From Akkermansia muciniphila (GTDB lineage Bacteria; Verrucomicrobiota; Verrucomicrobiia; Chthoniobacterales; Chthoniobacteraceae), in the NCBI GenBank assembly GCA_945906945.1, contig CAMDSZ010000007.1, positions 1 to 32,783 of the forward strand: a stretch of DNA of 32,783 nt, read 5' to 3'. Positions 18,151-31,734 of the stretch are shown piece after piece (positions within the stretch are counted from its first letter, which is position 1; the number at the start of each line of letters is the position of its first letter). The notes beneath the pieces are model-generated. The model worked only from the letters and a program-made list of their open reading frames with translations. It ran no database searches and had not been told where the DNA came from. The position numbers were made by a program, and so were the translations under genes.

Positions 18151-18993
18151 ATGCGTTCCTCTTTTCTTCTTCCCATGCTGGCTCTCGCGGCGGCTACCCA
18201 GCTTTCAGCTGCGCCGATTCCCGATCACCTCCGTCAAAACGGATGGTTTGTCGGTGCCCAGGCCTACACGTTCAAAGAGTTCAGCGCCTTTGAAGCGATT
18301 TCCAAGACCAAGGAAGCTGGTGGAAACGTGATCGAGTTCTACCCGGGGCAAGTGCTAAAGCCGGGCTCCTCCGACAAAGTGCATCACACCATGTCTGATG
18401 CGGCCATGGAGGAACTGAAGGCGGAGCTCAAACGAGTCGGCGTGCATGCCGTCAACTATGGCGTAGTCGGGGCAAAGACTAAAGAGGACGTCGACGCCAT
18501 CATGGGTTTTGCAAAAAAGATGGGCCTCTACTCGGTTTGCAGCGAGTCCACCGAATTGGTCGCCGATTGGGAGAGCGCGGCGAAGGAGTTGGATGTGAAG
18601 GTGGCCTTCCACGAACACGGCGGCTCCATGAGCAACCCGAAATACAAAGTCTGGAACCCACTGTATATTCTTGGCGTGGTTGAAAGCCGCGATCACCGCG
18701 TGGGTGCATGCGCCGATCTCGGCCACTGGTGCACTTCTAATCTGATCCCAGTCGAGTGCCTCCGCATTCTCAACGGACGCATTGTCAGCGTGCATCTCAA
18801 GGACAAGGCAACTACTGGAAAATCGGAGGTTGTTGTCGCAGGCAAAGGCGTGGTGGACGTTGGCGCCTGCCTCGAGGAGCTTAAGAAACAACGTTTTGAC
18901 GGCCACATTTCGGTCGAGCACGAGAACGATTGGAAAGACAATGTCTCGCAAGTCAAAGCGGACATTGATTTCGTCAAGGCCAGCCCGAAATAG
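18151..18993 (+). CDS. Exported sugar phosphate isomerase/epimerase-like TIM-barrel protein
   Basis: Signal peptide MRSSFLLPMLALAAATQLSAAP, then TIM-barrel isomerase pattern (GGNVIEFYPGQ..., VAFHEHG, GACADLGHW, VSVHLKDK, ISVEHEND). Confidence 0.85.
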   Translation: MRSSFLLPMLALAAATQLSAAPIPDHLRQNGWFVGAQAYTFKEFSAFEAISKTKEAGGNVIEFYPGQVLKPGSSDKVHHTMSDAAMEELKAELKRVGVHAVNYGVVGAKTKEDVDAIMGFAKKMGLYSVCSESTELVADWESAAKELDVKVAFHEHGGSMSNPKYKVWNPLYILGVVESRDHRVGACADLGHWCTSNLIPVECLRILNGRIVSVHLKDKATTGKSEVVVAGKGVVDVGACLEELKKQRFDGHISVEHENDWKDNVSQVKADIDFVKASPK

Positions 18994-19264: not shown

Positions 19265-21010
19265 ATGAAAAGCATCACAGCATTCCTCGTCGTTTTATTC
19301 ACGTCCCAGTTATTCGCAGCCCCCGCGACTCGTCCAAACGTGATCCTCATCATGTCCGACGACATGGGCTATTCGGACTTGGGTTGCTACGGCGGCGAGA
19401 TTGAAACGCCCAATCTCGATGCACTCGCGATGAATGGTCTGCGTTTTACGCAGTTCTATAACACGGCGCGCTGCTGTCCAACCCGCGCTGCTTTGATGAC
19501 CGGCCTTTACGCACACCAGGCGGGAGTCGGGCACATGGTGGACGGCGCTGGGTCTAAGTCCAGATCGTCCGCCTATTCGGGTGAGTTGAGCAAAAACGCG
19601 GTCACCATCGCCGAAGTACTCCGCACAGCGGGTTACTCGACTTATATGACAGGTAAGTGGCATGTGACAGGGGTCACAAAGCCGAAGACGGAGGCCGACA
19701 AGCATAACTGGCCGTTGCAGCGCGGATTCGACCGCTTTTACGGTACCATCCACGGCGCCGGCAGTTTCTTTGACCCGAACACGCTTACCCGCGACAACAC
19801 ATTCGTCTCGCCCTACGCCGATGCGGAGTATCAACCGGAACAATATTACTACACGGACGCCATCAACGACCACGCCGCCCGCTTCGTTACGGAGCACGCA
19901 AAGACTGCGGCACAGAAGCCGTTCTTCCTGTACATGGCCCACACCGCAGCCCACTGGCCGATGCATGCCAAGGACAAGGACATCGCAAAATATAAAGGCC
20001 GTTACGATGCCGGATACAATGCGATCCGCGCGGCCCGTCTGGGGAAGATGAAACGCTTGAACCTTCTGGATGAACGCTGGCAGATCTCGCCGCAGGTCGG
20101 CGAGTGGAGCACGATGGAGCACAAGGAATGGGAAGCTCGCTGCATGGAGGTCTACGCAGCGATGGTCGACTGCATGGACCAGGGCATCGGGCGTCTGGTC
20201 GATACGCTCAAAACGAACGGCCAGTATGAAAATACGTTGATACTATTTCTTCAAGACAACGGCGGCTGTGCAGAGGGCATGGGGCGCAACGGCCCATTCA
20301 AGCCCCGCGCGGAGAACCCCTCCTTGCCGGTGCTCGCAAACGACTATCTCCAGCCCGACATGATTCCTAAGCAGACACGGGATGGTTTTCCGATGCGCCA
20401 GGGAACAGGCGTCATGCCCGGCGGCGCGGACACCTTTATTGGCTACGGGCGCGACTGGGCGAATGTGAGCAACACGCCCTTCCGCGAGTACAAACACTTC
20501 GAGCACGAGGGCGGCATCAGTTCGCCGCTGATCGCGCACTGGCCCGCGGCAATGCAGGCTGGCAAGGCGGGCGGCAAACAGGCTGGTCATCTGATTCCCA
20601 CGCCAGCGCATCTCATTGACATCATGGCAACCTGCGTTGAACTCGCGGGCGTAAATTATCCGAAGCAGCATCACGAAAACACGATTGTACCAATGGAAGG
20701 CGTCAGCCTTGTTCCCGCCTTCAGCGGAAAACCCATCGATCGCGCGCAGCCGCTCTTCTGGGAGCACGAGGGCAACCGCGCAATCCGAGTCGGCCAATGG
20801 AAGCTTGTCTCAAAGCATCCCGGCGGCTGGGAACTCTATGACATGATTTCTGACCGGACCGAGATGCATGACCTCGCACAGAAGCAGCCCGAACGCGTTC
20901 TGGAAATGGCCGCGCAATGGGAGGCCTGGGCAAGTCGCGTTGGCGTCGCGCAATGGCCTCTTGGCGGTGGCGACAAAAAGAAAAACCAAGGCAAGAAAAA
21001 CGCGCAGTAG
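19265..21010 (+). CDS. Exported sulfatase (arylsulfatase A-like)
   Basis: Signal peptide. RPNVILIMSDDMGYSDLGCYGGEIETPNLD, FGly motif C-C-P-T-R-A-A-L-M-T-G (Cys70, codon 19472-19474), TGKWH, FFLYMAHTAAHWPMHA. Confidence 0.95.
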   Translation: MKSITAFLVVLFTSQLFAAPATRPNVILIMSDDMGYSDLGCYGGEIETPNLDALAMNGLRFTQFYNTARCCPTRAALMTGLYAHQAGVGHMVDGAGSKSRSSAYSGELSKNAVTIAEVLRTAGYSTYMTGKWHVTGVTKPKTEADKHNWPLQRGFDRFYGTIHGAGSFFDPNTLTRDNTFVSPYADAEYQPEQYYYTDAINDHAARFVTEHAKTAAQKPFFLYMAHTAAHWPMHAKDKDIAKYKGRYDAGYNAIRAARLGKMKRLNLLDERWQISPQVGEWSTMEHKEWEARCMEVYAAMVDCMDQGIGRLVDTLKTNGQYENTLILFLQDNGGCAEGMGRNGPFKPRAENPSLPVLANDYLQPDMIPKQTRDGFPMRQGTGVMPGGADTFIGYGRDWANVSNTPFREYKHFEHEGGISSPLIAHWPAAMQAGKAGGKQAGHLIPTPAHLIDIMATCVELAGVNYPKQHHENTIVPMEGVSLVPAFSGKPIDRAQPLFWEHEGNRAIRVGQWKLVSKHPGGWELYDMISDRTEMHDLAQKQPERVLEMAAQWEAWASRVGVAQWPLGGGDKKKNQGKKNAQ

Positions 21011-21113: not shown

Positions 21114-22418
21114 TCAAGTGCCGAGTTCGGATATCGTTCCAGTGCTCGAGGCAAATCGGCCAGTTTCTAGGCCCAGACGCTGGAGCATGGTGACGAAGAG
21201 ATTGCACAGGGGCTTGTTGTGCCCGGTGTCAAAAGCCACATGTCCGGCGTGCCTGAATCCGCCTCCGGCGAGCAGGATGGGGAGGTTCGTGCAGTTGTGG
21301 ACATTCGCGTCGCCGAGATTGCTGCCGTAGAGCACCATCGTCGAATCAAGCAGGCGCCCGCCCGTGTTAGTCGTCGCGCCGGCAAGCGAAGTAAACAGAT
21401 CGCGCAAATGGCGCATTTGCTGAAGATCCACCTTTTCGAGCTCGGCCAGCTTCTCCTTTGACTGTCCGTGGTGGCTGAGATTGTGGTAGCCATCGCGGGT
21501 TCGTTGTTCGCCGTCTATCTCGAACACCGGTGTCGCAAACCCGTCGACCATCAGCGTGATAATCCGGGTCGAGTCAGATTCAAAGGCAAGCCGCGCCATC
21601 TCGAGCATGAGCTGAATCTTCGGAAAGAAGCGGGCCTTGTCAGTGATGTCCGTCGGTTCCGCCGTCGTGGCCGCGGGCTTCGCTCTCTGCTCCCATTCGC
21701 CAGAGATTGCGAGCCGCTCCTCTAATTCGCGCAAAGAAGTCACGTACTGCTCAAGTCGGCTTTTGTCACCACTGCCAAGCCCCCGTTCAAAGCCGCGCAG
21801 GTCTTCGCGTACAGCGTCAAGAACGCTACCGCGATTCTTAAGCTGCTGGAGTCGCATGGCAACGGCTTTGGCATCACCCTGTATGAACATTTTCCGGAAC
21901 AAACCCGCCGGACTGTCTTCGGCAGGCAACAACACCCCATCGCGTGTCCATGAAAGGCTTCGGTTTGCCTTGTCGATATTCACCCCGAGATTCAGCGTTG
22001 AAAATCGCGTCTGCTGGCCGGTCGCCTCAGCGGCGAATTGATCAAGCGAGATGGTGTTGCGAAATCCGCTCCGCGTCGGATCGCGTGCCGCCGTAAGAAA
22101 ACAGTTTTCCGTGCTGTGACCTCCGGTGACCGCGGGATGCGATAACCCGCTGAAGACTGTAAATTCACCGCGAAACGCAGCGAGTTCCTTCAAATACGAA
22201 GACCCGGTAAAGTCGACGCCTTTGGTCTTCGGGAAAAAATTCTGCGGAAGCACGCCAAGATTGTTTGAGATAAGGAGCATCCGTTTTGGGGTAGGCGCTT
22301 GCCCGGTGTTTCCAAATACGGGCCTCATGCTCTCGAGCATAGGAAGAACCAATGTCACACCGAGCCCGCGCAGGAAGCGCCGGCGCGGAAGAGGGGTGCT
22401 AAAGTATGGTGATTTCAT
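21114..22418 (-). CDS. DUF1552 domain protein (exported)
   Basis: RRRFLRGLGVTLVLPMLESMRPVFG twin-arginine-like leader. 'PKRMLLISNNLGVLPQNFFP', 'SGLSHPAVTGGHSTENCFLTAA', 'LVDGFATPVFEIDGEQRTRDGYHNLSHHGQS' typical of DUF1552. Confidence 0.88.
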   Translation of the reverse strand: MKSPYFSTPLPRRRFLRGLGVTLVLPMLESMRPVFGNTGQAPTPKRMLLISNNLGVLPQNFFPKTKGVDFTGSSYLKELAAFRGEFTVFSGLSHPAVTGGHSTENCFLTAARDPTRSGFRNTISLDQFAAEATGQQTRFSTLNLGVNIDKANRSLSWTRDGVLLPAEDSPAGLFRKMFIQGDAKAVAMRLQQLKNRGSVLDAVREDLRGFERGLGSGDKSRLEQYVTSLRELEERLAISGEWEQRAKPAATTAEPTDITDKARFFPKIQLMLEMARLAFESDSTRIITLMVDGFATPVFEIDGEQRTRDGYHNLSHHGQSKEKLAELEKVDLQQMRHLRDLFTSLAGATTNTGGRLLDSTMVLYGSNLGDANVHNCTNLPILLAGGGFRHAGHVAFDTGHNKPLCNLFVTMLQRLGLETGRFASSTGTISELGT

Positions 22419-24970
22419 GGGGTGGACTTGGTTCCGAGAAAAATTTCACTGCTCACAAGTGCGTGAATGAGGTCTCGTACGCGGTATTCCCCGAGGGCGC
22501 AGGAATCGAGCATCGCTTCCAGCTCTGCCCGATCCGCAAAGCGAGCTGGCGTTCCGGTGGCATGCAACACGAGATGCGAAAGAAGGCTTTTGGCGAGCTG
22601 TCTGGGATTAGCGGCAAGATGCGTTTTGAGTGCGTGGATATCGGTGAACGACTCGCCGGTGGAGAGTTTTCCCGATGCATCAACCGGCTGTCCGACAAAA
22701 TAGGTGTATGGATGGCCGGCCGGGTCGATTCCGGTGATCTTGTCTCCGCGCTCCATCCCGCGATAACGGTCCCGCCATGCGCCCATCACGTCGAAACTCT
22801 CCATCGCGAATCCCACGGGATCAAACTTCGCGTGGCATGAGGCGCACGTCTTCGACTCGGTGTGTTTTGCGAGCAGAGTGCGGATAGTTGTGGCACCGCG
22901 GATGTCAGGTTCAATTGCGGGCACGCTTTTTGGCGGTGGCGGCACGGGTTGGCCGAGCAGCTTTTCCATGATCCACACGCCACGCAGCACGGGCGACGTA
23001 GTGGTGCCATTAGCGGTGTGCTTCATTAGCGCTGCCTGCGTGATCAATCCGCCAAAAGGACTGCCCTTCGGCAAAGCCACGCGCTGCAGCGCGGAGCCCT
23101 TCACACGCGGCAGATCGTAATGCATCGCCAAGCGGTCGTTCACAAAAGTGAAATCCGAGGCCACTACGGTGCTCGCCGGAGAGTTCTCTCGCACCATCGC
23201 TCTCAAAAAAGCCTGTGTTTCCTTCTCCATGGAGTCCACCAGGTAGTCGTCTTTACGATATTCGGGATACAGGCGCTCGTCAGGGATGTCGCGTCTGAGT
23301 TTTCGCAAATCGAGCCACTCGTCTGCAAAAGTACGCACGAATTGTTCAAAACGGGTATCCTCGATCATGCGCTCGGTTTGTGCACGCAACACGCTTCTAT
23401 CAAGCAAACGCCTTTCGTTTGCGAGGCCGGCGAGCTCTTCGTCCAGCCGCGAGTTCCAGAGAAAATGCGAAAGCCGGTTTGCAATGGCGAAGTGCACTGC
23501 CGCATCCGCCTTTAGCGGTTCGGTAAGATAAAGACAGTGCGATGAACAGAGCAACGCTTGGTAGCCCGCGAGCATCGCATCGACAAAAGCGGCTCCTCCG
23601 TCCAGCTTAGTGCGAATCAACTTCAAAAACGGCTGGTGCGCCTCCTCGCTCATTGGTCTCAAAGCGGCAAGTGAAGCAAAACGACGCAAGAGCCGCTCTG
23701 CATCAACAGCGTTGCCTCCGCCGGGAGGAACGTTGTCAAAAAGCACACGTTCCGATTGTGGCGGCCAGTCCGGCGCCGTGATCGGGCCGGTCACCTCGAG
23801 CCATTGGATTGCCACACCGCGATGCCCCTCGGGTGGCATCGGCGGATAATCGTAGAAAAAACCTCCATCCGTGCGGATGAATGGCACGGGCAACCCGAGC
23901 GGGCTGTACTCGAAAGTTTCGCCAGCCTTGAGATGAATGGTTGTTTCAAACTCGCGCGCCTCAGGCTGCAGATCCATCCACCCTCCGGTCTCCCGTACGT
24001 CGCCTGATACGTCAGCGCCGGATGGCTTCCGCGCGCGAAAGCTCATGGGCACCGGCTCGTGCGAAGGCACCATACGGAAGTCCCGCACCTGCCGCACCGC
24101 ACGTCCCTTGAAGCGCACGCGATAGGCTCCGCCCTCCTTTGAAATAAATCCGCGCGGATAACCGAAATAAGGCCACGTGGCCGATCGGAAAAGCGCGAGT
24201 TCAAGCGTGGAGTCCCCTCTCTGCTCGGGGGACATTGCTTTAAGTTCGGCATCAGTAATGGGGACCATCCGATTGTCGCGCGCGAAGAACATCGCCTCGC
24301 GTCCGCCGAATGTGCTCACGCCTGGAAAAAGGTTAACCCCAGTGAACTGCTGTGTTACCGCTCCAGCAGGAGGCTTGGGGCCCGCCATTGCGGCACGCAG
24401 CGCCGTCTCCGTTGCGTCCAGATAGGCATCCAGCTGCACATGCGACATGTCGAGCAGCACCGAGACTTTCGTGAATCCGTGCGAATCGCGGTCCTCCGGC
24501 AGTTTTTCCCGTATGTCCAAGTTGGGAAGTTTCAGCAGCGTCCGCAGATTGTTTTCAAACTCTACCCGCGTGAGACGCCGGATTGGACCGCGACCGTGTT
24601 GCATCACCTCTGCGCGGTCCACCGCGGTGATCGTCGCTGCTAGGGTGGCGATCATACGGCCGTGTTCTGAATCCGGTAAGTCGCTGTTCTTTGGCGGCAT
24701 TTCGCCCGCCCTGACGCGATCATGGATGCGGATCCAACGCTCGCGAAGGGCGGGGTCCTGCAGGTCTCTTGGGAGTTTGACGAGGTCAAGTCCGCCCTTC
24801 GCTTCGTCCGAGTCATGGCACTCGACGCAGCGTTTTTCGAGGATCGGTTCAAGCTCTTTAAAAGCCGGCAGGTCTTCGCCAACTGCCCACGTCTGCGCGC
24901 ATAAGGCGAACGCAATGGCCGCTAGGAATCGCGGGAGGTCGCGGGGTAGTATTGGCTGTAGCAGCTTCAA
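22415..24970 (-). CDS. Cytochrome c-like DUF1587/DUF1592/DUF1588/DUF1585 protein
   Basis: CVECHDSDEAKGGLDL (CxxCH), GPIRRLTRVEFENNLRTLL (DUF1587-like), 'LITQAALMKHTANGTTTSPVLRGVWIMEKLLG' (DUF1588), 'CASCHAKFDPVGFAMESFDVMGAWR' (second CxxCH). ATGA overlap with the DUF1552 gene. Likely TTG start. Confidence 0.88.
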   Translation of the reverse strand: MKLLQPILPRDLPRFLAAIAFALCAQTWAVGEDLPAFKELEPILEKRCVECHDSDEAKGGLDLVKLPRDLQDPALRERWIRIHDRVRAGEMPPKNSDLPDSEHGRMIATLAATITAVDRAEVMQHGRGPIRRLTRVEFENNLRTLLKLPNLDIREKLPEDRDSHGFTKVSVLLDMSHVQLDAYLDATETALRAAMAGPKPPAGAVTQQFTGVNLFPGVSTFGGREAMFFARDNRMVPITDAELKAMSPEQRGDSTLELALFRSATWPYFGYPRGFISKEGGAYRVRFKGRAVRQVRDFRMVPSHEPVPMSFRARKPSGADVSGDVRETGGWMDLQPEAREFETTIHLKAGETFEYSPLGLPVPFIRTDGGFFYDYPPMPPEGHRGVAIQWLEVTGPITAPDWPPQSERVLFDNVPPGGGNAVDAERLLRRFASLAALRPMSEEAHQPFLKLIRTKLDGGAAFVDAMLAGYQALLCSSHCLYLTEPLKADAAVHFAIANRLSHFLWNSRLDEELAGLANERRLLDRSVLRAQTERMIEDTRFEQFVRTFADEWLDLRKLRRDIPDERLYPEYRKDDYLVDSMEKETQAFLRAMVRENSPASTVVASDFTFVNDRLAMHYDLPRVKGSALQRVALPKGSPFGGLITQAALMKHTANGTTTSPVLRGVWIMEKLLGQPVPPPPKSVPAIEPDIRGATTIRTLLAKHTESKTCASCHAKFDPVGFAMESFDVMGAWRDRYRGMERGDKITGIDPAGHPYTYFVGQPVDASGKLSTGESFTDIHALKTHLAANPRQLAKSLLSHLVLHATGTPARFADRAELEAMLDSCALGEYRVRDLIHALVSSEIFLGTKSTP

Positions 24971-25008
24971 ATGAGTGCGATGTTGAGGCGAAGGCTTGTA
25001 GGGCTTAA

Positions 25009-26418
25009 TCAGGCGATGATTTCGCGGATGACTTTTCCATGCACATCGGTGAGGCGGAAGTCGCGACCCGAATAGCGGTAGGTGAGCTTCTCGTGCTGGA
25101 TGCCGAGAAGGTGCAGAATGGTTGCATGGACGTCATGAATCTCCACCGCGCCTTCCACGGGAAGATATCCATAATCATCGAGGCGACCGTAACTGTGTCC
25201 ACCCTTGAGGCCTGCTCCTGCCATCCAGATTGTAAATCCCCAGGGATGATGATCCCGGCCCGGAGACTTTCCGTAGAGCTCCGTATTCGGGGTGCGTCCA
25301 AACTCTGAGGCGAAAACCACGAGGGTGTCGTCGAGCAGCCCGCGTAATTTTAGGTCCTTCAAAAGTCCAGCGATAGGCCGGTCGATTGCAGCTGCGTTTT
25401 CGAAATGCAGCTTCTCCAGCTCGGAGTGCTGGTCCCATCCGCTTTTCACAATTTCAATAAAACGGACACCCCGCTCCAGTAGACGGCGGGCAGCAAGGCA
25501 TTGGCGCCCGAAATTAGACGTCGCCTTGTGTTCCGCACCGATGCCGTAAAGCTCCATCGTTGCCGCTGATTCCTTGCTGATATCCGTCGCCTCCGGCACT
25601 GCATCCTGCATCACAAACGCCTTCTCGTGATTCGCAATCGCGGCCTCGATAATTTGGTTTTGTTGAACGGAGTCCAAAAAGCTTTTGTCTAGCTGTCGCA
25701 CCGCCGTCATTTTGTTGGACTGCAGTATTTTTGATTTTTCCAAAAGCGCCAGGTCGTCCAGCGCTGCGGCCCCGCTTTGAAAAAATGGTGATGCCTGAAG
25801 CGACGGCGGCAGGAAGCCGTTGGTTCTGCACTGGCGTTTCCGGGAGCCCATCACCACAAACCCCGGAAGATTTTGGCTCTCAGCGCCGAGTCCGTACTGC
25901 GTCCATGCGCCGATGCTGGGGAATCCTTGTAGCAACGATCCGCTGTGCAGAAAACCAATTGCGCTTTCATGGTCGGGCGAGGGACCGGTGACGGCGTGCA
26001 GGAACGTGAGGTCATCCGCGCAGGAGCCGATGTGAGGGAAAAGGTCGCTGACCATTTTTCCACTCTCGCCGTAAGGCCGAAACTCCCATGGGCTCTTTAA
26101 AATTGCTGCACTGGTTCGGCCGGTGATGTCCTCTTTTCGTCCGGGAACATTCAACGGCTGCCCGTTTTCACTCACCAACCGCGGCTTGTAGTCGAAGCTA
26201 TCGAGGTGAGAAAGGCCGCCATCCATGAAAAACCAGACGACTCTCTTTGCCTTACCCGGATGATGAGGCGGCACCAGTTGGACCGGCGAACTGAAGCTTC
26301 TTTCCGCTAAAAGGCCGTTGAATGCCAGCCATCCGAAACCGGAGGACATCGTTTGCAGGAAGGCACGCCGCGAGGGTGTCAATGCGCCTAAAAGAGGATT
26401 GCGAGGGGAAAACTTCAT
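25009..26418 (-). CDS. DUF1501 domain protein, TAT-exported
   Basis: From ATG at 26418: MKFSPRNPLLGALTPSRRAFLQTMSSGFGWLAFNGLL... then 'KRVVWFFMDGGLSHLDSFDYKP', 'FASEFGRTPNTE', 'GRDHHPWGFTIWMAGAGLKGGHSYGRLDDYGY'. Upstream ORF extension to 26796 overlaps the next gene and looks spurious. Confidence 0.92.
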   Translation of the reverse strand: MKFSPRNPLLGALTPSRRAFLQTMSSGFGWLAFNGLLAERSFSSPVQLVPPHHPGKAKRVVWFFMDGGLSHLDSFDYKPRLVSENGQPLNVPGRKEDITGRTSAAILKSPWEFRPYGESGKMVSDLFPHIGSCADDLTFLHAVTGPSPDHESAIGFLHSGSLLQGFPSIGAWTQYGLGAESQNLPGFVVMGSRKRQCRTNGFLPPSLQASPFFQSGAAALDDLALLEKSKILQSNKMTAVRQLDKSFLDSVQQNQIIEAAIANHEKAFVMQDAVPEATDISKESAATMELYGIGAEHKATSNFGRQCLAARRLLERGVRFIEIVKSGWDQHSELEKLHFENAAAIDRPIAGLLKDLKLRGLLDDTLVVFASEFGRTPNTELYGKSPGRDHHPWGFTIWMAGAGLKGGHSYGRLDDYGYLPVEGAVEIHDVHATILHLLGIQHEKLTYRYSGRDFRLTDVHGKVIREIIA

Positions 26419-26443
26419 GATGGGCTGGGCTGCGGGAAGGTTT

Positions 26444-29400
26444 TTACGGGAGGTAGAGAAACTCTTTTGCATTGAGCAGCACGTGGCAAACATCGGTCCA
26501 CAGGCGCTGATCTTGGTTTTGCGAGGCGTAGGGCAGGGCATACGTGGCGGCCTGATCCTGGACGAATGCCAAGAGCGCCTGAGTTTCCTCGTGCGATGGC
26601 TTACGGCCGAGTGCCTCGAGAAACAGGCGCTCCAAGCGCAGATCCAGCGAGACATTTGTAGAAGCCTGCAAACTCTTCGCAGCCCAGACGCTCGCCTGCT
26701 CGTGCACAAAGGAGTTGTTGAGCAACAGCAAGGATTGTCCGGGGACATTGCTTGAATCACGAGATCCCTGCGTGCGCGATGGTTCCGGCGCATCAAACAT
26801 CACCATCAAATGATTCTGCGCCTCGCGCTTGATGTATTGGTAAATACCGCGCCGCTGGTTGGCTGGCCCTGAGCCGTTGCCAAAGTCGCTTGGACCGGTG
26901 TAGCCATACATCTGCGGGTTGAGCTGCCCTGACACCGCCAGCAAACTGTCACGCACGGCTTCAGCGCGCAGCCGCTGCAGGGGCATGTGTGAAAGAAGTC
27001 GGTTTGCGGGATCTTTTCTCTGCGCCTCCTCGGAAGCCGCGCTAACCGTCCGGTACGCCTGCGTGGTCACCATATAGCGCACGAGCTCTTTTATCGACCA
27101 ACCCTGCTCCACGAAGTACGTCGCGAGATGGTCCAGCAATTCGGGGTGCGTTGGCTTCTCTCCCATCACTCCGAAGTTGTCGACGGTGCCGACAATCCCT
27201 TGGCCGAAAATCCAGCGCCACATCCGGTTCACCATCACACGAGCAGTGAGGTGATTTTCCGGCGATACAAGATCTCTTGCGAGTGAAAGGCGCGGACTCA
27301 CCCCCGCGGCATAAGCGTCCGTGCCGCGCAACACCTCCAAGTAACGCCGCGCCGCGGGCTCCCCAGCCGCCTCCGGCGAGCCCCGCCGCTGCACGGGCGC
27401 GTCGAATCCGGCTCCCTGGTCAACCAGCGCTGCCGCCCTTTGGAAGCTCGGCAGCGACTCCTCCAGTCTGCGGTAATCCGCGGCGAGCACCTTGAGCGGC
27501 TCGGGAAGCGATTCCACGCGGTTTCGTATGAGTCCGTGGGCTAGGAGCCAGTTCAACAGGGTCACCTCCTCAGGGAGCGCCTTGTCCTGCATCCAATGGT
27601 CCAGTGCTTTCTCGCAAACGCTTCCCCAGAAGTCCGCCCACTCTTCAGCGGCCCCAGCCCTCCCGGCCGCCGGGATAAAGAGCAGCGCTGTTCTCAACTC
27701 GTCCTGCGGTGGATCCGGACTTTCATGCTGGACGACCTGTTCTACCTCAAACCAGGAGCGCCCCGTGTGATCCTTCGCGGTCATCTTGAAAAACTTCCCG
27801 CCCGCCTCGGATCGCCGGAAGTGCGCAACATCATCCTTGGTCAAAATTTCGAGGTACGAACGGCGGCCCTGCCAGCTGGGCTGGTGCCCCACTTTCACGG
27901 TTACCCAATTCGAAAACCGCGACTCAAAGTGCGCCACCTTGTATCCTTGGGCGATGTTTTCCATCTGCTGGAAATTATGTTGAATGAGCCGCACATGCCC
28001 AGCATCGCCACCAGCGACTTTCAGGCTCACAAATTGAGTCCCAAGCGCGAAGTCCGCCGATCGAACAATCGCGCCGTGTTTGCGCGATAGCCTGTCCGAT
28101 GCAAGACCAGGTGCCACGATGCGCTCCACCAGTTCCACACCGGAGGGGGCGATCGCGAAATCGCTGACCGGTTTTCGTACCGTTTCTGGAAGCACCCCCG
28201 AAATATCCCAGTCCGCGTCGCTGCTGGAAAAGTCTGCGATCACTTTGAACCCTGCCCGGTTTGTTTCCGCCCGCTTCTTGGAGTTTTCGAGGAGCTGCGC
28301 CTGAACCTCCGCGAGTGTCACGCCCCATCCTTTTTGCGCGGCATTCCGGCGCAACATCCAAGGCAAATAGACGGGATCACTCATATCAACCTTTTCCGTC
28401 TTGAGCAGTTTCGCCCACGTCGAATCCGGTGCGATGCCACCAGTGCCCTCCCCTGCAAGGATGCGTTTTAAGGAGGCGCTCTCTCGCTGCAGATCCTCTT
28501 TCCACACTTTTTCCAGCGCGACCTTAATCTGTCCTTTGAGCAGTTGAAGTTCGGAGATGCCGGTCTGCCGGACTTCTTGCGTGTCGATGACAGTTTGCGT
28601 TTGCCGCGAACTGGCCAGCACCCCGAAGATTCCGTAATAGTCACGGGTTGAGATCGCATCGAACTTGTGGTCGTGGCAGCGTGCGCACGCGATGGTGATT
28701 CCTTGGAATGCCTTGCCCAGTGTGTCGATCTGGTTCTCAAGCATCTGCGCTTCCTCAAGCGCGACATCAGTGGCTGTCGAGGATGTTTCCATGAGCCGCA
28801 TGCAGCCGGTTCCAATCGGCGACTCGTTGATTTTCAGTTCGTGGTTGATTCGCGGCGGAAGCAAATCCCCCGCGATATGTTCCTGCACGAAACGGTCGTA
28901 GGGCACGTCATGATTGAAAGCGCGAATCACATAATCGCGGTACCGCCACGCCTCGGGAATCGGGTAGTCACGCACATACCCGCCCGTCTCACCAAAACGC
29001 ATCAAGTCGAGCCAGTGGGCCGCCCAGTTCTCCCCGAACGCGGGCTCCTTCAAAAAGCGGTCCACCAGACGTTCGAACGCGCGCGGCCTCGTGTCGTTGA
29101 CGAAGGCATCCACTTCATCGGGCCTCGGAGGCAGGCCGAGAAGCGCAATCTTCAGGCGCCGCAAAAGCACTTCTTTCTGAGCAGTTGCAGCAGGGCTCAA
29201 TCCAGCCTGCTGCATTTTTTCAAAAAGGAACCGGTCCACAGGGTGTTCCGCCCAAGTGGGATGCTGCACCTCCGGCGGAGTCGGCGATTGGACGGGCTGC
29301 CAGGCCCAATGCGCACGTCGCTCCTCCAACTTTTGGTTCCATTCCTGACGCGAAGCCTCCTCCGCCGTCAGAGGTTTGTCTGGGATACCAGGCAGCCCCA

Positions 29401-29866
29401 TTCGAACCCATCGCGTCAGATCGGCAATCACCCCGTCGGAAAGCCGCGCCTCGCCCTTCGGCATTTTCAGATCGCTCACCTCGTGACGAATGGTTCGAAG
29501 CAAAAGGCTGTTTTCCAGGCTCTCCCTGTCAAGCAACTCGCCGCTCTCGCCACCCTGTTCGAAACCCCCGCGGTAGTCTAAGCGCAACCCACCCTTTGTT
29601 TTTTGGGCACTGTGGCATTCAAAACAGTGATTCAAAAGCACAGGACGAACCCGTGATTCAAAAAACGCGACACCGTCCGGTTCGACCGGCGCAGCCGACA
29701 AAGCCGACGACAGTGCACCCGTAATCCACAAGGCGAATACCATCACAAATGAGCGCGCTTCTATGGATGCGTGTAGGGAAAAACACGAATGCCGAACACG
29801 ATCGAACCAAGCCCAGAGCCGGCCGCGCGATCCCATAGGTGTCTGAAGTGGCGCGAAGGGGGACAT
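26444..29866 (-). CDS. Planctomycete-type cytochrome c-like protein (PSCyt1 + DUF1549 + DUF1553)
   Basis: CFECHSAQKTKGGLRLDYRGG, HPVDRFLFEKMQQAGLSPA (DUF1549), CARCHDHKFDAIS, 'ARVMVNRMWRWIFGQGIVGTVDNFGVMGEKPTHPELLDHLA' (DUF1553). The start could instead be 29743 (MVFALWITGALSSALSAAP signal peptide). Confidence 0.92.
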   Translation of the reverse strand: MSPFAPLQTPMGSRGRLWAWFDRVRHSCFSLHASIEARSFVMVFALWITGALSSALSAAPVEPDGVAFFESRVRPVLLNHCFECHSAQKTKGGLRLDYRGGFEQGGESGELLDRESLENSLLLRTIRHEVSDLKMPKGEARLSDGVIADLTRWVRMGLPGIPDKPLTAEEASRQEWNQKLEERRAHWAWQPVQSPTPPEVQHPTWAEHPVDRFLFEKMQQAGLSPAATAQKEVLLRRLKIALLGLPPRPDEVDAFVNDTRPRAFERLVDRFLKEPAFGENWAAHWLDLMRFGETGGYVRDYPIPEAWRYRDYVIRAFNHDVPYDRFVQEHIAGDLLPPRINHELKINESPIGTGCMRLMETSSTATDVALEEAQMLENQIDTLGKAFQGITIACARCHDHKFDAISTRDYYGIFGVLASSRQTQTVIDTQEVRQTGISELQLLKGQIKVALEKVWKEDLQRESASLKRILAGEGTGGIAPDSTWAKLLKTEKVDMSDPVYLPWMLRRNAAQKGWGVTLAEVQAQLLENSKKRAETNRAGFKVIADFSSSDADWDISGVLPETVRKPVSDFAIAPSGVELVERIVAPGLASDRLSRKHGAIVRSADFALGTQFVSLKVAGGDAGHVRLIQHNFQQMENIAQGYKVAHFESRFSNWVTVKVGHQPSWQGRRSYLEILTKDDVAHFRRSEAGGKFFKMTAKDHTGRSWFEVEQVVQHESPDPPQDELRTALLFIPAAGRAGAAEEWADFWGSVCEKALDHWMQDKALPEEVTLLNWLLAHGLIRNRVESLPEPLKVLAADYRRLEESLPSFQRAAALVDQGAGFDAPVQRRGSPEAAGEPAARRYLEVLRGTDAYAAGVSPRLSLARDLVSPENHLTARVMVNRMWRWIFGQGIVGTVDNFGVMGEKPTHPELLDHLATYFVEQGWSIKELVRYMVTTQAYRTVSAASEEAQRKDPANRLLSHMPLQRLRAEAVRDSLLAVSGQLNPQMYGYTGPSDFGNGSGPANQRRGIYQYIKREAQNHLMVMFDAPEPSRTQGSRDSSNVPGQSLLLLNNSFVHEQASVWAAKSLQASTNVSLDLRLERLFLEALGRKPSHEETQALLAFVQDQAATYALPYASQNQDQRLWTDVCHVLLNAKEFLYLP

Positions 29867-29889
29867 GGCATCTTGGGGGGTTCTTCGAA

Positions 29890-30870
29890 TCAGCGTCGCA
29901 CTTTCAAGCAGTCGCGCAGATGTTCGCTGTCGTAGGCGTGAACATTGGTGATCCGCATTTCCTCGATGCCCGTTGTTTTATCCACGATGCCTTCGATCTG
30001 ATCCACCAGTTGCGCCCGTTGGAGACGCCAGACAATTTTGCCGTCCGAACTCATTTCCACCAAAAGGTCGCTGCCTTCATCCGGTGTCTTCAGGTGGTAA
30101 TCTCCGCAGGCAACGAGCACGTCGCCGTTTTCCAGACACTGCATGCCAAGGAGGTATCGGCATGAAACTCCAAGGTCCTGCGAAGTCCAGCAGGCTAGCT
30201 TGTCTCCATTCTGGTTGATGCGCAGCAGTTGGCCGCCAGTAGAAGTGGCGACCAAAAGAGTGCCATCGCTGCATTGAGTGATCGCGAATGCCTTTTTGAC
30301 AGCTGCCGTCGGCTCCAGCAGTGGCTCGATTGGAATCGACTGCAACACCTGGCCCGTCCCAGACTCGATCTTAAGCAGGGTCTTCCGACCGTATTGGCAC
30401 ACCCAGAACGCGTTTGCTCCCGGAATTTCGCGCACTGTCCTGTATCTAAAGTGAAGGGGATCACTGGAGAGATCCGGCACCGGCGTCTCGCCCACCACCA
30501 CGCCGCTGCGGTCGACCGTGCGAATGCGGTTTGCGCCACTATCCATAAATGCGATCCGCGAGCCTCCATCGAGCACTGCGCAGCTGTTCGCCTCAAGCCC
30601 TTTTTCGCCGCGGGTGGCGGCACTCTCCATGACGAGTTTCTTTGTTGCGTCAAAAACTGACAGCCCGCCGCGATGAACATAGGCGACGCCTCCGTCCGGC
30701 AGCCGCCAGGCGTCGTAAATTCCAGAGTGCCCGGGATGCCTGAGTAGATCGGTGACCCTGCCTTCGCGATTCACTTCGATCACCTGGGTGTCGGCGGCAA
30801 GCAGGAAGCGCTCTTCAGCGCGCAGATTCACTGCAACAGCAAGGGCGATCAGTAAAAATGTGGCTTTCAT
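29890..30870 (-). CDS. Exported beta-propeller-like protein (NHL/PQQ-like repeats)
   Basis: Signal peptide MKATFLLIALAVAVNLRAEE. Repeated blade-like segments (VIEVNREGRVTDLLRHPGHSGIYDAWRLPDGGVAYVHRGGLSVFD; LLRINQNGDKLACWTSQDL; LVEMSSDGKIVWRLQRA). Confidence 0.7.
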   Translation of the reverse strand: MKATFLLIALAVAVNLRAEERFLLAADTQVIEVNREGRVTDLLRHPGHSGIYDAWRLPDGGVAYVHRGGLSVFDATKKLVMESAATRGEKGLEANSCAVLDGGSRIAFMDSGANRIRTVDRSGVVVGETPVPDLSSDPLHFRYRTVREIPGANAFWVCQYGRKTLLKIESGTGQVLQSIPIEPLLEPTAAVKKAFAITQCSDGTLLVATSTGGQLLRINQNGDKLACWTSQDLGVSCRYLLGMQCLENGDVLVACGDYHLKTPDEGSDLLVEMSSDGKIVWRLQRAQLVDQIEGIVDKTTGIEEMRITNVHAYDSEHLRDCLKVRR

Positions 30871-31700
30871 TGGAGGTGTGCCTGCGGGTGAAGCGAACGC
30901 GTTACCATGTCGCCAGCTTTCTTGACCGTGGATGCAATAGCCATCATCCGCTCCTCACTCAACCGCTGGCTTGGACCGCTGATCCACACGCTCGCAATTG
31001 CGTTGCCATCCGGATCAAGAATCGGTGCGCCCAGACAGTGGTGCCCCTCAAGATGCTCGCCCACATCAAAAGCGAAACCCTGGGCGCGCACTGCATTCAA
31101 GCATTTGAGAAAATCCTTCCGGCTGGAAATGGTCCAAGGATGAAACCGCTCGAATTTCATACCGGCGATAATGGCATCCCGCTGCGGCTCCGGCATGAAG
31201 GCGAGCATCGCTTTTCCGGGCCCGCTCGTGTGCAGTGGGAAGCGCGTGCCGCGCTCGACGTAAAATTTGATCAAAGCGCGCCCGATCACCCGCTCCAGCA
31301 CGATACCTTCATGCCCCGAAATGATCCCGAGATGTGCGGCCTCGCCCGTCTGTTCGCTCAGCCAGCGCATCGCCGGCAGAGCCGCCTCGGTTAGCGGCAC
31401 ATCGTCCACCACCGGCTGGCAGAGTGCCAGCATCTGCGCGCCGATGCTAAACCGCTTTTCCGCGTCCCTCACCACGTACCCATGGGCGACGAGCGACTGC
31501 GTGACGCGATAAACAAAGTTCACAGACAAGCCCAGCCTTTCAGCGATCTCGGAGAGCGTCAACCCGGCCGAAGCGCCGCCGAGGCAGCGCAGCACGGCTA
31601 GGGCGCGATCAAGGCTGGGAGTGCTAAATCCCGAGTCGTGGACCGGGGAGGCTTTTTTGCGGCGAGATGTCGTACGGCCGGATGTCGTTTTTTGTACCAT
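30867..31700 (-). CDS. IclR family transcriptional regulator
   Basis: LDRALAVLRCLGGASAGLTLSEIAERLGLSVNFVYRVTQSLVAHGYVVRD wHTH. Effector domain with 'TGEAAHLGIISGHEGIVLERV' and 'LHTSGPGKAMLAFMP'. Confidence 0.94.
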   Translation of the reverse strand: MVQKTTSGRTTSRRKKASPVHDSGFSTPSLDRALAVLRCLGGASAGLTLSEIAERLGLSVNFVYRVTQSLVAHGYVVRDAEKRFSIGAQMLALCQPVVDDVPLTEAALPAMRWLSEQTGEAAHLGIISGHEGIVLERVIGRALIKFYVERGTRFPLHTSGPGKAMLAFMPEPQRDAIIAGMKFERFHPWTISSRKDFLKCLNAVRAQGFAFDVGEHLEGHHCLGAPILDPDGNAIASVWISGPSQRLSEERMMAIASTVKKAGDMVTRSLHPQAHLQ

Positions 31701-31734
31701 TTTCTATATCTGCAATAGACCTACAATATAGAAA
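31701..31734. promoter_or_regulatory. Putative IclR operator: perfect 9-bp inverted repeat abutting the IclR start codon
   Basis: tttctatat (31701-31709) and atatagaaa (31726-31734) with 16-bp spacer. The IclR start codon is at 31698-31700. Confidence 0.55.

Follow-up and report, generated by a model that had tools for sequence, protein, structure and literature searches.

Two types of gene pair, in which a protein with PSCyt and PSD domains is encoded beside a DUF1501 or a DUF1552 protein, are known in Verrucomicrobia with many copies per genome, and the searched text of He et al. (2017, PMC5615132) suggests a role for them in carbohydrate use. In lake Verrucomicrobia these families reach dozens of copies per genome, and the literature that we searched held no function for the PSCyt/PSD proteins or for DUF1501, DUF1552, DUF1553 and DUF1592. 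A second system relevant here is Route III, a non-phosphorylative pathway for pentoses and deoxyhexoses, which yields pyruvate together with glycolate or lactate (PMC6336799). One putative enzyme of this kind, the L-2-keto-3-deoxyrhamnonate (L-KDR) 4-dehydrogenase 6D9Y, has a basic active site with Lys209 and Arg247 (PMC11199699), and a related enzyme from H. huttiense was used as L-KDP 4-dehydrogenase (PMC6336799). The window analysed here, that is the whole stretch of 32,783 nucleotides, is the entire contig C7 of a freshwater Verrucomicrobia MAG (4.06 Mb in 416 contigs) and carries both pair types stacked behind a gene for an IclR-family regulator.

Anatomy of the six-gene run and the palindrome before IclR

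Six genes follow each other on the minus strand in the order IclR, beta-propeller, PSCyt1/PSCyt2/PSD1, DUF1501, PSCyt1/PSD3/PSD5/PSD4/PSCyt3/PSD2 and DUF1552. Open reading frames and Pfam domains agree here with the preliminary description, which had listed six same-strand genes with these domains. The run and its two neighbours are as follows:

30867-31700, minus strand: IclR-family regulator (HTH_IclR and IclR_C above the Pfam cut-off)
29890-30870, minus strand: exported beta-propeller, putative partner of the PSD4 protein (Sec-like signal; Mala_s_1-like, just below the cut-off)
26444-29866, minus strand: PSD1 protein, PSCyt1-PSCyt2(DUF1549)-PSD1(DUF1553) by Pfam, with two CxxCH motifs (CFECH, CARCH)
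25009-26418, minus strand: DUF1501 protein (Pfam; Tat signal SRRAFLQ)
22415-24970, minus strand: PSD4 protein, PSCyt1-PSD3(DUF1587)-PSD5(DUF1595)-PSD4(DUF1592)-PSCyt3(DUF1588)-PSD2(DUF1585) by Pfam, PSD5 being below the cut-off, with two CxxCH motifs (CVECH, CASCH)
21114-22418, minus strand: DUF1552 (HXXSHH) protein (Pfam; Tat signal RRRFLRG)
19265-21010, plus strand: convergent sulfatase, not counted in the system (Pfam Sulfatase; C-x-P-T-R motif intact as CCPTRAALMTG)
18151-18993, plus strand: exported xylose-isomerase-like TIM barrel protein, not counted in the system (Pfam AP_endonuc_2)

The spacing is also as first described, with 4-bp overlaps between IclR and propeller (30867-30870) and between PSD4 and DUF1552 (22415-22418), gaps of tens of bp elsewhere (23, 25 and 38 nt, with DUF1501 starting at 26418), and convergence on the plus-strand sulfatase gene about 103 bp from the DUF1552 end of the operon. 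For DUF1501 we took the ATG of the Tat signal at 26418 as the start. The longest reading frame of this gene begins with a TTG at 26796 and overlaps the PSD1 gene across 26444-26796; the ATG is the likelier start, and automatic annotation may over-extend the gene. On reading the sequences, twin-arginine signals were recognised in the DUF1501 and DUF1552 proteins and Sec-like signals in the propeller, PSD1 and PSD4 proteins.

A 34-bp palindrome at 31701-31734, TTTCTATAT-N16-ATATAGAAA, abuts the IclR start codon, with TTTCTATATTGTAGGTCTATTGCAGATATAGAAA standing directly before the ATG; from shuffles of the window, 0 such palindromes are expected. In the form TTTCTA-N22-TAGAAA it is found again with identical spacing and in the same place before the orthologous IclR gene at loci L140, L149, L151, L160 and L167, and a near match precedes it at L153. 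A search of the whole genome (4.06 Mb) with the pattern returned the window site only, a count that carries no weight since the reversed control pattern returned three; the case for the site is built on its placement and its conservation. We propose the palindrome as the IclR operator, which would fit local autoregulation of the whole six-gene run by IclR; the earlier claim of a single regulated unit gains support from its conserved place directly before the regulator gene. Scans for promoters and terminators yielded nothing above the chance level, and the run may also have internal promoters. The best NCBIfam models for the regulator (BhcR, PcaR and KdgR) all scored below their own cut-offs, so none assigned it to a known inducer class.

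Pairing in the genome and conservation among relatives

The source genome has 24 matches to PSD2, 24 to DUF1552, 63 to DUF1501 and 55 to PSD1, some of them fragments of one gene. A same-strand DUF1552 gene lies within 4 kb of 23 of the 24 PSD2-type genes and a same-strand DUF1501 gene within 4 kb of 48 of 54 PSD1 genes, and there is no cross-pairing between the two types in this genome besides two stacks. In the window, both the PSCyt2/PSD1 protein with DUF1501 (type 1) and the PSCyt3/PSD4 protein with DUF1552 (type 2) have the domains of their pair and an adjacent partner on the same strand. Of the 24 type-2 units, only those on contigs C7 and C13 are stacked with a type-1 pair. Random placement would give about 0.13 such stacks (P about 0.007), and both stacks share the order PSD1-DUF1501-PSD4-DUF1552. 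The second stack (L123, G000:C13, 8338-16648) is 28-42% identical to the window copy, and its contig ends before any upstream regulator. Elsewhere in the genome a DUF1501 copy (G000:C172:5184-6205) lies in two frames with stop codons in its matches and is probably a decaying pseudogene; a fragment of a sugar dehydrogenase gene (GSDH, see below) on C172 likewise carries a stop.

When 147 relatives were searched with the propeller, about a dozen genomes turned out to have an ortholog (57-73%), and 31 propeller loci came from a scan of named genomes, nearly all of them environmental Verrucomicrobiota MAGs; the viral collection that was searched contained no relatives. MAG titles at L141, L145, L152, L164, L165 and L170 read Akkermansia muciniphila or Klebsiella pneumoniae, labels that look wrong; these loci carry Verrucomicrobia-type PSD operons. 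The conserved core of the 31 loci is propeller-PSD4-DUF1552, and orthologs of all six proteins are adjacent at L160, L167 and L153. An IclR 74-83% identical to that of the window precedes the operon at L140, L149, L151, L153, L160 and L167, and a more distant one (43-48%) follows DUF1552 at L157, L158 and L161-L164. Full-length orthologs of the window PSD1 protein (59-60%) stand beside the core at L142, L150, L153, L160 and L167, and those of the window DUF1501 protein (72-76%) at L142, L143, L150, L153, L160 and L167. The linkage of the two pair types that had been claimed from the window thus recurs in six of the 31 loci, where its own PSD1 and/or DUF1501 orthologs adjoin the core, and at about 15 loci the core has a type-1 gene of some kind as its direct neighbour (about nine beyond the true orthologs). 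A single IclR over both pairs is a feature kept by part of the family, and the type-1 pair is optional. That both pairs always occur together was rejected, given two stacked units among 24 and a core standing alone at L149, L151, L157, L158 and L162-L164.

Propeller and PSD4 protein form a single reading frame in 14 of the 31 loci. In trees, the window propeller groups with unfused propellers (with L140, support 0.987), the window PSD4 is nested in the propeller-fused clade (0.97-1.0), and the window DUF1552 also falls with that clade. Since the window PSD4 and propeller come from different branches, the operon appears to have been rearranged. The history that fits best is loss of the propeller part from a fused ancestor and its replacement by a separate gene upstream. 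Retention of the propeller, whether fused or separate, suggests that PSD4 needs it. A small related reading frame (156-180 aa) lies between PSD4 and DUF1552 at L149 (5590-6060) and L151 (14116-14658) only. The solved relative of the propeller is 3no2 (TM 0.83 to the target), and the model of the fused propeller-PSD4 protein (pLDDT 73, pTM 0.52) gave matches that, among those listed, cover the propeller, with 3no2 as the best. An identification of the propeller as an SMP-30 lactonase was discarded, its solved relative being 3no2 and the lactonase at L155 being a separate gene.

CxxCH motifs, predicted partner folds and sugar-oxidation neighbours

The CxxCH motifs lie at positions 81 and 394 of the window PSD1 protein and at positions 48 and 709 of the window PSD4 protein, one in PSCyt1 and the other in DUF1549 (PSD1) or DUF1588 (PSD4). 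Nearly all complete PSD1 and PSD4 proteins have two such motifs, which are conserved in relatives, and by the CxxCH criterion both are predicted to be exported two-heme c-type cytochromes. We rejected the view that PSD1 and PSD4 are full-length homologs, their alignment being limited to the N-terminal heme domain. Sequence searches of the PDB with DUF1552, the fused propeller-PSD4 protein and PSD1 returned nothing except the propeller relative.

The AF2 model of DUF1552 (pLDDT 84.4) matched sulfatases and their relatives in a Foldseek search against the PDB (best E 3e-7, probability 1.0), and DUF1552 is predicted to be a divergent member of the alkaline-phosphatase/sulfatase-type fold, at a TM-score of about 0.4. 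The profiles of DUF1552 and DUF1501 align in their C-terminal part (94%, E 1.4e-7), and the C-terminal half of DUF1501 aligns with sulfatases in hhalign (89%, E 2e-6), which makes DUF1501 a probable alkaline-phosphatase-superfamily relative by profile. The nucleophile motif of sulfatases has the canonical form CxPSRxxLLTG. The usual Cys/Ser/Thr nucleophile motif was not recognisable in DUF1501 or DUF1552, and both keep an invariant His in a CxPSRxxLLTG-like motif; hhalign of the N-terminal region was not significant. A His in place of the sulfatase nucleophile is offered as a lead only, the motif looking compelling and the N-terminal profile alignment falling short of significance. All 30 DUF1501 sequences compared have WDxH, EFGR and GR[DEN]H, which are compatible with metal ligands.

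Recurrent neighbours of the operon were identified by clustering and by Pfam/NCBIfam. At L160 and L167 one strand reads GlcD-GlcE-GlcF-IclR-PSD1-DUF1501-[propeller+PSD4]-DUF1552-GSDH-SDR-FCD regulator-PSD1b, where GSDH is a homolog of PQQ-type sugar dehydrogenases with a CBM6 domain and a CFACH motif. At L155, genes for GlcDEF, GSDH, an SMP-30 lactonase, a mutarotase, the SDR and the FCD regulator come just before propeller-PSD4-DUF1552; in genome G016 (L128/L146) SDR and FCD directly precede the propeller-PSD4 fusion. GSDH and GlcDEF adjoin the operon at L155, L159, L160 and L167. The source genome has an eight-gene run GlcD-GlcE-GlcF-SDR-FCD-S15/CocE-PSD1-DUF1501 on contig C122 (L173, 106-10951), whose counterparts at L160 share one cluster with the orthologs of the window operon, and on contig C414 a GSDH ortholog followed by an MFS-like reading frame.

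The closest PDB entry to the SDR is 6D9Y, with Lys209 and Arg247 conserved, and by homology only the SDR, which is encoded in the relatives and on C122 and not in the window, would be a 2-keto-3-deoxy-aldonate 4-dehydrogenase. Release of glycolate or lactate by Route III would suit GlcDEF. In eight of the ten genomes of the order that have the SDR, it stands beside DUF1501 or a PSD1-DUF1501 pair, and in the other two it lies on contigs of 3-5 kb. Any sugar-pathway marker is present in only 12 of the 31 propeller loci and none is on the window contig, so the link to a sugar pathway holds for a subset of relatives. An aldonate dehydratase and a diketo-acid hydrolase were not found in the linked cluster; genes of the IlvD/EDD and FAA-hydrolase families occur in the host only elsewhere in the genome. 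On contig C55 (L202, G000:C55, 3431-11279) an IlvD/EDD dehydratase gene is divergent from an FAA-hydrolase-family gene. Further along lie an apparent 2-hydroxyacid dehydrogenase gene and an apparent sugar kinase gene, and the locus possibly encodes another aldonate pathway.

Proposed function and comparison with known systems

The reading that we favour, with a probability of roughly 0.42, is that the operon encodes an exported redox module that is induced by its substrate and serves the oxidative, non-phosphorylative catabolism of aldoses, with the six genes forming one transcription unit autoregulated by IclR. An aldose, or an oligosaccharide of it, would be processed and oxidised in the extracytoplasmic space; sugars of the L-arabinose or L-rhamnose type are the likeliest candidates. 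The c-type hemes of the PSD4 and PSD1 proteins would conduct the electrons, PSD4 would work with DUF1552 and PSD1 with DUF1501, each having its own obligate Tat-exported partner of the alkaline-phosphatase fold, and the propeller would dock on PSD4. Where relatives have the complete cluster, the aldonate would be made by the PQQ-type sugar dehydrogenase, the mutarotase and the SMP-30 lactonase and taken up by a DgoT-like MFS protein. The SDR 4-dehydrogenase would serve Route III, and the glycolate or lactate set free would be oxidised by GlcDEF. We infer binding of IclR to the palindrome, heme loading, electron flow, the substrate and the chemistry of each pair. The exported oxidation named in the preliminary description gains support from the pair of CxxCH motifs that almost all complete partners have and from adjoining sugar-oxidation genes in a subset of relatives. 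A point against the aldose reading is that GSDH would itself oxidise the sugar. The presence of pathway markers in only 12 of the 31 loci, the lack of a dehydratase and a hydrolase in the cluster and the below-cut-off scores of the IclR models also count against it.

The partner fold could also be read in another way, with DUF1501 and DUF1552 as active hydrolases of the alkaline-phosphatase superfamily that strip ester groups off a glycan outside the cell. The CxxCH proteins would then be scaffolds or generic electron-transfer parts and not the oxidising enzyme. The predicted alkaline-phosphatase-superfamily fold of DUF1552, the potential metal ligands shared by all 30 DUF1501 sequences, the esterase genes, of S15/CocE type and others, that lie close by in relatives, and an F5/8-type-C domain in one PSD1 protein would all suit such a function. 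We consider it unlikely, however, since the two CxxCH motifs that almost every complete PSD1 or PSD4 protein retains argue for a redox role, and the Cys/Ser/Thr nucleophile motif is not recognisable in either DUF family. The same CxxCH motifs, together with the adjacency of GSDH and GlcDEF at L155, L159, L160 and L167, could instead indicate a general module, not specific for a substrate, that takes electrons from periplasmic dehydrogenases such as GSDH and hands them to an acceptor outside the cell or to the respiratory chain. A generic carrier would need no partner per copy, though, and both the dozens of divergent paralogous pairs per genome and the dedicated proposed operator suggest substrate-specific roles, so that this explanation, too, seems improbable.

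That the operon degrades a sulfated polysaccharide jointly with its two neighbours, the convergent sulfatase and the isomerase with its export signal, had been suggested from their physical proximity in the window, and sulfatase genes are often near PSCyt genes in lake Verrucomicrobia according to the searched text of PMC5615132. The claim of a sulfated-glycan substrate did not hold up in the comparison: neither the sulfatase nor the isomerase of the window is syntenic in relatives or has an ortholog at any of the 31 orthologous loci, where the sulfatases that do occur are few, variably placed and 24-29% identical, and the window sulfatase is convergent and outside the operon. We regard this idea as very unlikely. 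In a wider and quite doubtful reading, the PSCyt/PSD proteins with DUF1501 or DUF1552 would be a new class of two-component exported oxidoreductases acting on sugars or oligosaccharides, composed of a two-heme protein and an alkaline-phosphatase-fold protein with an invariant His where the nucleophile usually sits. If so, Verrucomicrobia and Planctomycetes would have many oxidative enzymes, each specific for its substrate, that in part take the place of glycoside hydrolases. The palindrome, the fused propeller, the partner fold and the sugar-oxidation genes point to an initial function of these enigmatic proteins that can be tested. If that function is sugar oxidation, these abundant bacteria may process part of their carbon via oxidative enzymes that present annotation overlooks.

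Compared with the alkaline-phosphatase superfamily (sulfatases, phosphonate monoester hydrolases, LtaS and YejM), DUF1552 shares the predicted fold and DUF1501 is similar by profile to sulfatases in its C-terminal half, but the global TM-score of DUF1552 is low (0.3-0.4), and both families lack CxPSRxxLLTG and are paired with a CxxCH protein. The propeller has its fold in common with 3no2 (BACCAC_01654 of Bacteroides caccae), for which we know of no link to cytochromes. With Route III (Watanabe et al. 2019, PMC6336799; 2024, PMC11199699) the clusters of the relatives share a homolog of the SDR 4-dehydrogenase, a lactonase, a sugar dehydrogenase and an aldonate-type transporter. They differ from it in being without the dehydratase and the hydrolase and in having a PQQ-type c-heme protein as the dehydrogenase, and exported PSD/DUF modules are absent from the known pathway. 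The window has the same domain architectures as the PSCyt/PSD pairs in the searched text of He et al. 2017 (PMC5615132), which is without stacking of both pairs, an operator, a propeller fusion, the partner fold or a pathway context. The pair families themselves are known; stacked behind a palindrome and linked to a propeller and a pathway, they form an arrangement that is undescribed so far as the tools used can tell.
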